Assembly (NCBI GenBank): GCA_001321855.1
Contig: JPUP01000078.1
Span: 1 to 64,000, forward strand
Direction of reading: 5' to 3'
Source of the DNA: SAR11 cluster bacterium PRT-SC02
Lineage (GTDB): Bacteria > Pseudomonadota > Alphaproteobacteria > Pelagibacterales > Pelagibacteraceae
DNA length: 64,000 nt
Shown here: positions 9,597 through 12,693 of the stretch, one piece after another
How positions within the stretch are numbered: position 1 is the first letter of the stretch
Layout: each line of letters starts with the position of its first letter
Made by a program: the position numbers and the translations under genes
Notes under the pieces: model-generated
What the model was told of the DNA's origin: nothing
Seen by the model: only the letters and a program-made list of their open reading frames with translations
Databases searched by the model: none

Positions 9597-10495
9597 TGGA
9601 ACTCTACATCAAACTGATAGACGTCATACTCCCTGTTTTTTTTGTAATTGGTATAGGGTACTATCTCGGTAGAAAAGATCCTAATTTTAACACTGATTTT
9701 ATAACTACATTGGCTGGTAATGTAGGTACACCTGCGATGATTTTTTATACTATTACATCAACAGGTGTAACTTTAGAAACATTTATAGAATATTTTATTT
9801 ATGCTTTAGTTATAATTGGAGGTTTTGCTGCAATAGGTTTAATTGTTCTTGCTTTAATGAAAAAAGACATTGTGAGTGAACTCCCTCCATTAATACTTCC
9901 AAATACTGGTAATATGGGTATTCCTATTTGCCTTTTTGCCTATGGGACAGAAGGTCTGGGTATAGCCTCAGCTATAGCATCAGTAATCATCTTACTGCAC
10001 TTCACGTTAGGTGTTCTTTTAGCAAAAAAAAGTTTTTCACTTAAAATATTGATTGCTAATATGCCTATTTACGGGATAATAGCAGCTGTAATTGTTTTAT
10101 ATTACGATTGGGATGTTCCTGGTTTTGTAGTAAACACGACCTTTTTATTAACTTACGCAACAATTTTTCTGGTTCTTATGTCTTTAGGAATTGCTTTAAC
10201 AAAGTTAAAAGTCGTTTCATGGTTAAATGCATCAATTTTAAGTTGTGTGAGAATTATAATTGGACCAATAATTGGTTTTAGTTTAATTCAATATTTAAAT
10301 CTTAGTGGAGTAGCGGCTGGAGTGCTTTTAATTCAATCTGCAATGCCAAGTGCTATTTTAACTTATTTAGTAGGTTCGATGTATTCAGAGAGAAGGGTAG
10401 TCGATAGTATTGCTAGTGTTATAGTTACTTCCACTATAATGTCATTTATAACTATCCCTTTTGTAGTTTATTTTAGTCTTAAATATTTTCAGTAA
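9596..10495 (+). CDS. AEC (auxin efflux carrier) family transporter
   Basis: Hydrophobic; LPNTGNMGIPICLFAYG, QSAMPSAILTYLVGSMY motifs. Confidence 0.85.
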   Translation: MELYIKLIDVILPVFFVIGIGYYLGRKDPNFNTDFITTLAGNVGTPAMIFYTITSTGVTLETFIEYFIYALVIIGGFAAIGLIVLALMKKDIVSELPPLILPNTGNMGIPICLFAYGTEGLGIASAIASVIILLHFTLGVLLAKKSFSLKILIANMPIYGIIAAVIVLYYDWDVPGFVVNTTFLLTYATIFLVLMSLGIALTKLKVVSWLNASILSCVRIIIGPIIGFSLIQYLNLSGVAAGVLLIQSAMPSAILTYLVGSMYSERRVVDSIASVIVTSTIMSFITIPFVVYFSLKYFQ

Positions 10496-10874
10496 ATACA
10501 GTAGCTTACAGCAAATAATTAATGTTTTAGACTATAAGATTAGTAAATATTACTTACTTAAAATTTAATTTTACAAACAAATACCATTAAAATGATAATA
10601 AATATGCCTTAAACTAATAAAAAATATAAGTTTTTTTTTAATTTTTAATTATAAAAAGTGTTATTTAATAAAAAACACAGAAGAAACCAAAAAAAATTGA
10701 CTAAAAATTAGCATTATATATTCAAGCCTTGCAGTTAAGGAATATATCGTTTAATCGTCCATATGAGTGGTTTTTTTTGCGATCAATATTAATTCTATGC
10801 AACCATGCCTTGTATTCATGCAATTTACAATAATTAAATGGCTTATTAGCTAGAACCGTTGGTATTAAATACTT

Positions 10875-11153
10875 TTAGAATGAAAAACCCTCTTTTTTTA
10901 ATAATTTTCGCTTTGTTTTAATACCTCCTCTACCAGAGTAACCGCCTAATCGTCCATCAGTTCTTATCACTCTATGACATGGTATTACAGGAGGATAGGG
11001 GTTTCTCGCTATTGCGTTTGCCACCGCCCTTACTGACTTTGGCTTTCGAACCGCTTTTGCAACCTCTAGATACGTTTTTACTTTACCCCTAGGTATTTTT
11101 TTAAGGTATTTCCAAACTTTTATTTGAAAATGAGTACCCTTAAGTTTAATCAT
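10875..11153 (-). CDS. Methylated-DNA--cysteine S-methyltransferase, C-terminal domain-only protein
   Basis: FQIKVWKYLKKIPRGKVKTY, RAVANAIARNP, PVIPCHRVI with active-site Cys. Confidence 0.9.
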   Translation of the reverse strand: MIKLKGTHFQIKVWKYLKKIPRGKVKTYLEVAKAVRKPKSVRAVANAIARNPYPPVIPCHRVIRTDGRLGGYSGRGGIKTKRKLLKKEGFSF

Positions 11154-11310
11154 AAAGAAGAAAAGCTAAAAAGCTAATGGCAATTATAAAAATAAAGATA
11201 AATGTTGTTTTAACTGTTTTTTTTTTACTATCTTTAATTTTTTCCCAATAATTGAGACTAAAGTAGACTAGAGCAATAAAAAGGCCGCCAATCAATATAT
11301 ATTTTATCAT
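11146..11310 (-). CDS. Small membrane protein, 54 aa (below the length cutoff of the supplied ORF track)
   Basis: Hand translation MIKYILIGGLFIALVYFSLNYWEKIKDSKKKTVKTTFIFIFIIAISFLAFLLYD*; two hydrophobic stretches; overlaps start of the downstream methyltransferase gene by 8 nt. Confidence 0.65.
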   Translation of the reverse strand: MIKYILIGGLFIALVYFSLNYWEKIKDSKKKTVKTTFIFIFIIAISFLAFLLYD

Positions 11311-11311
11311 T

Positions 11312-11698
11312 TTAATCCTTCAAAACCTCAATAATATCACCATCTCTAGATCCCTCTAGTTTCTTTAATTCATGCGGGTTATTCGCTTTAGCCCATAGAT
11401 TAGCTGATGAAACAAGCCTAATTTCGTCCTTTTTGCTTGCAGGAGTAGGACCAAAACCTATTGCAATGGCGTTTCCTTGGTTCCAAAAAGCTATCTCACC
11501 AATGTTAAAGACCTCTTTAGCGTTCTTTTCAGGCTTAATTGTATTCTTTGGTATATAAAAATACACTTCCTTACCCCAAGTGTTTACTTTTGATTTAATT
11601 GGAAGCATAGAATAAATTTCTTTACCTGTTGAAGTGTCCATCACTTTGCATTTAATTGACATATTCATAATTTTAATTTTTATATTCATTCCAAACAA
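11312..11698 (-). CDS. Cyclophilin-like fold protein
   Basis: YFYIP..., GEIAFWNQGNAIAIGFGPTPASKKDEIRL pattern typical of the family. Confidence 0.7.
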   Translation of the reverse strand: MFGMNIKIKIMNMSIKCKVMDTSTGKEIYSMLPIKSKVNTWGKEVYFYIPKNTIKPEKNAKEVFNIGEIAFWNQGNAIAIGFGPTPASKKDEIRLVSSANLWAKANNPHELKKLEGSRDGDIIEVLKD

Positions 11699-11742
11699 CT
11701 CTTAATTTAATATATTGACATCAAATTAGAACTAATATATTA

Positions 11743-11769
11743 TTTCCGATAATTAATGGTTATCGGAAA
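11743..11769. repeat. Perfect inverted repeat TTTCCGATAA-(TTAATGG)-TTATCGGAAA
   Basis: 10-bp arms, 7-bp spacer, ending 6 bp before the ATG of the tyrosine recombinase. Confidence 0.9.
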
Positions 11770-11775
11770 AAACAT

Positions 11776-12693
11776 ATGAATAAACTTGTAGTTGATATAA
11801 AATCCCTTGAGCTAGATACTTTGAAGAATCTTAGTAATGCCAAGGCAGATAATACTTTAAGAGCATATAAAGCTGATTATAGAGATTTTTTAGAGTTTTG
11901 TACAAAACATAGTTTTAAATCAATGCCAACAGAACCAAAAATAGTAGCTCTCTATCTCACTCATTTATCAAAATACTCTAAATTCAGCACTTTAAAAAGA
12001 AGATTGGCCTCTATTAGCGTTATACATAAATTAAAAGGACACTACATTGATACTAAACATCCTCTAATAATGGAAAATCTTTTAGGTATAAAAAGATTAA
12101 GAGGAAGTAATCAAAAAGCAAAAAAGCCGTTATTAATCAATGAGTTAAAAACAATTATTGATGTAATAGATAAAAGTAAAAATAAATTTTTAAAAAAAAC
12201 AAGGAATAAATCGTTAATACTTCTGGGTTTTGCTGGAGGCTTTAGACGATCAGAACTAGTTTCTATTGATTACGATGATATAGATTTTGTAAGTGAAGGT
12301 GTGAAAATATTTATTAAAAGGTCAAAAACAGATCAATCAGGTGAAGGGATGATTAAAGCAATACCCTATTTCATAAATGAGCAATATTGCCCTGTTAAAA
12401 ACTTGAAGAATTGGATTAATTTATCAGATATAAAAACAGGCAAAGTTTTTGATATATCTGACAAAAGTGTTTCCTTATTAATTAAAAAATATGCCGCATT
12501 AGCAGGCCTCGATGAAAAAAAATATTCAGGTCATAGTTTAAGGTCAGGATTTGCAACCTCAACAGCTGAGTCTGGCGCTGAAGAGAGAAACATTATGGCT
12601 ATGACAGGCCACAAGTCAACTCAGATGGTCAGGAGATACATTAAAGAGGCTAATTTATTTAAAAACAACGCATTAAAAAAATTAAAAGTATGA
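11776..12693 (+). CDS. Tyrosine recombinase/integrase family protein
   Basis: Catalytic residues: GGFRRSE (R), KRSKTDQ (K), HSLRSG (HxxR), GHKS (H), RRYI (Y). Confidence 0.95.
   Translation: MNKLVVDIKSLELDTLKNLSNAKADNTLRAYKADYRDFLEFCTKHSFKSMPTEPKIVALYLTHLSKYSKFSTLKRRLASISVIHKLKGHYIDTKHPLIMENLLGIKRLRGSNQKAKKPLLINELKTIIDVIDKSKNKFLKKTRNKSLILLGFAGGFRRSELVSIDYDDIDFVSEGVKIFIKRSKTDQSGEGMIKAIPYFINEQYCPVKNLKNWINLSDIKTGKVFDISDKSVSLLIKKYAALAGLDEKKYSGHSLRSGFATSTAESGAEERNIMAMTGHKSTQMVRRYIKEANLFKNNALKKLKV

Follow-up and report, generated by a model that had tools for sequence, protein, structure and literature searches.

A solo Cre-like tyrosine recombinase and its adjacent inverted repeat as the probable chromosome dimer resolution system of SAR11 bacteria

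SAR11 bacteria are among the most abundant marine bacteria and a model of genome streamlining. The stretch of DNA analyzed here (the window; 64,000 nucleotides of contig JPUP01000078.1 of SAR11 cluster bacterium PRT-SC02), which named records assign to the Pelagibacteraceae, order Pelagibacterales (SAR11), carries the gene of a solo tyrosine recombinase preceded by a short inverted repeat (Table 1), and the relation between these two elements is the subject of this study. The repeat, TTTCCGATAA-TTAATGG-TTATCGGAAA, was found exactly as a first-pass annotation of the window had described it, i.e. as a perfect 10-7-10 dyad separated by 6 nt from the ATG of the recombinase. The dyad extends imperfectly outward to 14-nt arms (11739-11773), in which 12 of the 14 positions are complementary. 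No second match was detected, allowing up to 3 mismatches, in the 64-kb window, as the annotation had already noted, or in the 656-kb assembly of the same genome, which is about 60% complete. By chance, 0.13 perfect 10-7-10 repeats having 3 or more G/C in each arm are expected per window, which makes the repeat taken alone only mildly improbable; its significance comes from conservation, which therefore had to decide.

Table 1. Positions of the recombinase gene and the associated features in the window
Feature	Position	Strand	Description
Candidate dif-like recombination core	11743..11769	+	Arms 11743-11752 and 11760-11769, 10 bp each, perfect; centre TTAATGG 11753-11759, 7 bp
Sigma-70-type promoter of recombinase	11715..11743	+	TTGACA 11715-11720, 17-bp spacer, TATTAT 11738-11743
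Solo tyrosine recombinase, 305 amino acids, Cre-like plasmid-recombinase lineage (ATG at 11776)	11776..12693	+	PF00589; catalytic residues; trees; fold search
Replication terminus region	10424..11756	.	Cumulative GC skew of the window peaks at 10424; repeat centre 1.3 kb away

Orthologues of the recombinase were found throughout the genus at 61-78% identity. The annotation had proposed searching the genome and its relatives for the repeat, and had regarded its absence upstream of orthologous recombinases as evidence against a recombination site; when this search was run, the repeat stood directly upstream of the gene in 144 of 144 distinct orthologues drawn from several genera of the family. 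The arms fall into two classes, ..TTCCGATAA / TTATCGGAA.. (class A, 103 sites) and ..ACTAxxGATAA / TTATCAATAGT.. (class B, 41 sites), and their symmetry is largely kept in both. The conserved arms are separated by 7 bp at all 144 sites, with TTAATGG as the centre of 104 and TTAATTG of 33 (together 137/144). Of 151 genus genomes, 105 contained a 17-bp core, GATAATTAATKGTTATC, with at most 1 mismatch, essentially as a single copy and nearly always adjoining the recombinase, and a reversed control pattern gave almost no matches in the same genomes. In each of the 11 single-contig family genomes the perfect core occurs exactly once, immediately upstream of the recombinase, a single copy being what characterizes Xer/dif systems. 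The recombinase itself was found in 107 of the 151 genomes, and universal presence at such completeness predicts 112 +/- 5, so that the count fits universality once genome incompleteness is allowed for.

The position of the site in the chromosome was evaluated by cumulative GC skew, the maximum of which marks the replication terminus. In all six contigs evaluated (64-472 kb), the site lay close to this maximum (748, 1106, 1080, 2019, 1037 and 1332 bp, the last being the window), which is the terminus position of Xer/dif systems as seen on contigs rather than whole chromosomes. For the five contigs besides the window, the product of the chances for a randomly placed site is ~4e-11, a value that is overstated, the genomes being related. 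The genes neighbouring the site belong to 21 families downstream and 7 families upstream, indicating that local gene order around it is not fixed.

Next to the site lies what is usually the only tyrosine recombinase of the genome. Genus genomes with any match in profile searches with PF00589 nearly always had just one such protein, as did 8 of the 11 single-contig family genomes (the other 3 carry extra integrases elsewhere); G201, with a chromosome of 1,308,759 bp and the site at 998,842-998,858, likewise has a single match. By the same searches the XerC/XerD pair is absent from complete family genomes, which leaves one conserved chromosomal tyrosine recombinase. In the sister family f2, which belongs to the same order, XerC and XerD of the classical type are recognizable in sequence, and no close relative of the SAR11 recombinase was found. 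The FtsK gamma domain was detected in 36 of the 38 genomes that were searched for it, that of the window among them. In G124, ~17 kb separate the candidate dif site from a phage-type integrase that seems to adjoin a tRNA gene (L217:17500-18700); this protein was considered as a partner of the site and rejected as a separate phage-type integrase. A single additional integrase is also present in each of several other SAR11 genomes.

These data bear on whether the repeat could be an invertible switch, a phage or island attachment (att) site, or the remnant of a mobile element. Such an origin would suit an enzyme family that is common on plasmids, and yet there is one copy per genome with no partner site, gene and site occur throughout the bacterial family and always together, the upstream neighbours come from just 7 families with no element boundary noticed, and the extra integrases of some genomes are separate proteins encoded elsewhere. 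We regard this group of explanations as very improbable; the invertible switch and the att site, both proposed in the first-pass annotation, are contradicted by the single copy, the missing partner site and the family-wide conservation.

Trees, together with its best matches in sequence and fold, assign the recombinase to the plasmid-borne Cre-like recombinases and not to the XerC/XerD lineage. The catalytic residues R157, K184, H253, R256, H279 and Y288 are invariant in alignment A1, and the enzyme falls outside the XerC, XerD, XerA and XerS equivalog families of NCBIfam (72-84 bits against cut-offs of 220-335 for XerC, XerD and XerA; 60 against 267 for XerS). The closest relatives found outside SAR11 are alphaproteobacterial homologues (up to 45% identity), and plasmid-borne 'site-specific integrases', matched in 2315 plasmid records, reach 40-42% identity; identity to Cre is 22%, and the alignment with sister-family XerD spans just 89 residues. 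In trees, which contained no XerH, XerS, XerA or XerL sequences, the SAR11 and plasmid enzymes, together with P1 Cre when it was added, were split from XerC/XerD with 100/100 support, the grouping that defines Cre/lox-type systems. A fold search with the predicted structure (mean predicted local distance difference test score, pLDDT, 75.6) gave Cre for all of the 28 best matches and XerH next. Since the SAR11 clade groups with the plasmid enzymes but is not nested inside them, and the root region stayed unresolved on adding further alphaproteobacterial homologues, the tree root gives no proof of the direction of transfer, and descent from a plasmid would be the simplest reading. An origin from a phage integrase was set aside, the phage relatives being weak (<=32% identity over part of the protein). 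A loop of ~12 residues in the catalytic domain occurs in 41/41 class B enzymes and in 0/103 others. We dropped it as a determinant of arm specificity; its occurrence mostly tracks phylogeny, and a similar loop is seen in plasmid enzymes whose sites have class A-like arms.

The same type of site stands beside plasmid-borne homologues. Among 21 plasmid loci of homologous recombinases, 13 repeats were found against 0.22 expected, scored as a [C/G]ATAA-N5-8-TTAT[C/G] core with at least 9 of 14 symmetric positions. These sites have the general form TCCGATAA-N6/7-TTATCGGA, mostly with a 7-bp centre, and lie upstream of the gene at 44 to >1000 bp, some beyond other genes; their hosts, from five phyla, are Bacillota, Chlamydiota, Bacteroidota, Actinomycetota and Betaproteobacteria. 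Examples are the Niallia site, ACTTCCGATAA-TATATAG-TTATCGGAAGT, and the Mesobacillus site, ACTAACGATAA-TATATAG-TTATCAATAGT, whose arms are those of SAR11 class B. For SloxP, which belongs to the Cre-like SCre system, we take the core to be TCCGATAA-CTGTAA-TTATCGGA, letters to which an exact match was found in a plasmid of Shewanella sp. ANA-3. Because this form is kept beside one enzyme family across phyla and in unrelated promoter settings, the site is best read as the substrate of the adjacent recombinase family, as far as sequence comparison can tell. A GATAA-N6/7-TTATC-type dyad was also seen close to alphaproteobacterial homologues of other families (L333, L334, L336 and L341; 35-45% identity), on chromosome or plasmid, and plasmids from many phyla (loci L316, L320, L322, L252 and L319) bear a wide family of modules consisting of a recombinase and a symmetric lox-like site, of which no earlier description was seen.

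The plasmid sites also help to judge a further proposal of the annotation, that the repeat forms an RNA hairpin in the 5' leader which hides the GGA of the ribosome-binding site of the recombinase mRNA. The sequence of the window does fold better than its shuffles (-12.8 kcal/mol, z -3.0), and this part of the proposal holds; however, class B sites lack GGA in the 3' arm, the plasmid sites are a long way from the start codon or have other genes in between, and a hairpin does not predict the terminus position. We give this explanation hardly any credence.

In the promoter of the recombinase, the -10 box abuts the left arm of the repeat, and 141 of 144 orthologues have a TTGAC box starting 23-24 nt ahead of the 14-nt left arm. 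As the promoter ends at the left arm, the start point should fall inside the site and the bound enzyme should repress its own gene. Autoregulation is thus likely in addition to the dif role, judging from the arrangement of the sequence. The repeat might instead be solely an operator, through which the recombinase or another dimeric regulator represses the recombinase promoter while the enzyme acts elsewhere, and its place against the -10 box and across the predicted start of transcription, in a promoter that is well conserved, would suit that role. An operator alone, however, predicts neither the terminus position nor a conserved 7-bp centre, plasmid relatives have the same site type at 44 to >1000 bp from the gene, and the genomes hold no other copy to serve as the real target, which makes this explanation improbable. 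The autoregulatory operator that the annotation had offered as an alternative therefore survives as a probable by-product, the site overlapping the -10 box and start point, and leaves the terminus position unexplained.

Taken together, we put at roughly 90% the probability that the repeat is the SAR11 chromosomal dif site and the adjacent gene the only dimer-resolution recombinase. The dif-like core site, another suggestion of the first-pass annotation, thereby gains strong support from its single copy, its location at the terminus beside the only tyrosine recombinase, and its being carried with the enzyme family across phyla. The recombinase would be the probable chromosomal dimer-resolution enzyme, working as the 'Xer' of a group in which a Cre/lox-type module at the terminus appears to resolve chromosome dimers. 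The two identical arms would be occupied by two monomers of the single enzyme. Such an arrangement suggests a tetramer like that of Cre or XerH, which would synapse, at the terminus, the sites in the two halves of a chromosome dimer; a site in single copy at the terminus has as its only partner the sister site of the dimer. Strand exchange in the 7-bp centre would then yield two monomer chromosomes, although symmetry alone does not fix the exact crossover length. FtsK at the septum probably takes part, and the recombinase, once bound, should also lower transcription from its own overlapping promoter. Enzyme and site would stand in for XerC/XerD as a Cre/lox-type module, and modules of this kind occur elsewhere mostly on plasmids. 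We consider it rather likely that the Pelagibacteraceae swapped XerC/XerD for such a module of plasmid origin, i.e. domesticated the recombinase of a mobile element, and that the site doubles as the operator of the gene.

One observation weighs against a dif function: four genomes rated 93-99% complete (G211, G219, G133 and G174) have neither recombinase nor site, either through real loss or because the assemblies have gaps at the terminus. In bases 1-800,000 of G201, the part of that chromosome covered, the skew minimum lies at 307.6 kb, 37 kb off the exact antipode of the site.

Among known systems, XerS/difSL of streptococci and lactococci and XerH/difH of campylobacters and helicobacters are alike in having one recombinase, one terminus site usually beside its gene, and XerC/XerD replaced. 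The SAR11 system differs from them in its Cre-like plasmid-type enzyme, far under the NCBIfam cut-offs for XerC, XerD, XerS and XerA, in a perfect dyad around 7 bp (11 bp in difSL, 6-10 bp in difH), and in the overlap of the site with the gene's promoter. XerL/dif of Legionellales (PMC9765430) is likewise a single-recombinase system in a group thought to be without dif/Xer, with a site whose 10-bp arms are perfectly symmetric and which lies close to the maximum of GC skew and, in Coxiella, with the gene on a plasmid; the likeness is one of description, XerL being longer (catalytic Tyr387) and experimentally proven and the SAR11 system known from sequence alone. With SCre/SloxP and Cre/loxP, SAR11 shares a homologous recombinase and one enzyme on two identical arms, and the SloxP core is the same, TCCGATAA-N6-TTATCGGA, with the SAR11 spacer being 7 in the present reading of the arms; the SAR11 enzyme is 30% identical to one of two recombinases on the SloxP plasmid, either of which may be SCre. 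At 35 bp, read as 14-7-14 and lying near the gene, the SAR11 site resembles the symmetric ~34-bp sites with 6-8 bp spacers of Cre/lox-type systems; in contrast to SCre/SloxP and Cre/loxP, it is chromosomal, at the terminus, in single copy and directly before the gene, as the chromosome's own system. With XerC/XerD and canonical dif it shares the terminus location, a low-GC symmetric site and the presumed function, but it has one enzyme instead of two, from another lineage (the 100/100 split above), and its 7-bp centre departs from the 6-bp central region reported for all proteobacterial dif.

Carnoy and Roten (2009, PMC2731167) stated that P. ubique is free-living and has lost dif/Xer, which was read as streamlining being able to discard the system; they raised Cre/lox-like substitutes in dif/Xer-deficient proteobacteria and noted no evidence for any. 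According to a report cited in that paper, Cre/loxP at the terminus suppresses filamentation of an E. coli dif mutant. Our data indicate that SAR11 does use the kind of Cre/lox-like system asked about there, giving a natural case at a chromosome terminus; for Legionellales, XerL brought an experimental correction similar to the one proposed here (PMC9765430). A literature search, with subscription papers outside its scope, found no published description of a SAR11 dif site. The finding bears on the debate over the domestication of mobile-element recombinases for dimer resolution (PMC8138268), and the site marks the terminus exactly in a group whose replication rates are inferred from metagenomes. 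The results also supply many candidate Cre/lox pairs for genome engineering, and the plasmid modules form a large pool of candidate orthogonal pairs.

In published experiments, the P. ubique gene annotated xerD (SAR11_1019), which is probably this recombinase gene, rises with recA under sulphur limitation, and the two also rise together in light; this joint rise agrees with a link to recombination. One gene away from the site in the window, a 92-amino-acid alkyltransferase-like protein is encoded on the minus strand (10875-11153), consisting solely of the DNA-binding domain of O6-methylguanine methyltransferase (PF01035).
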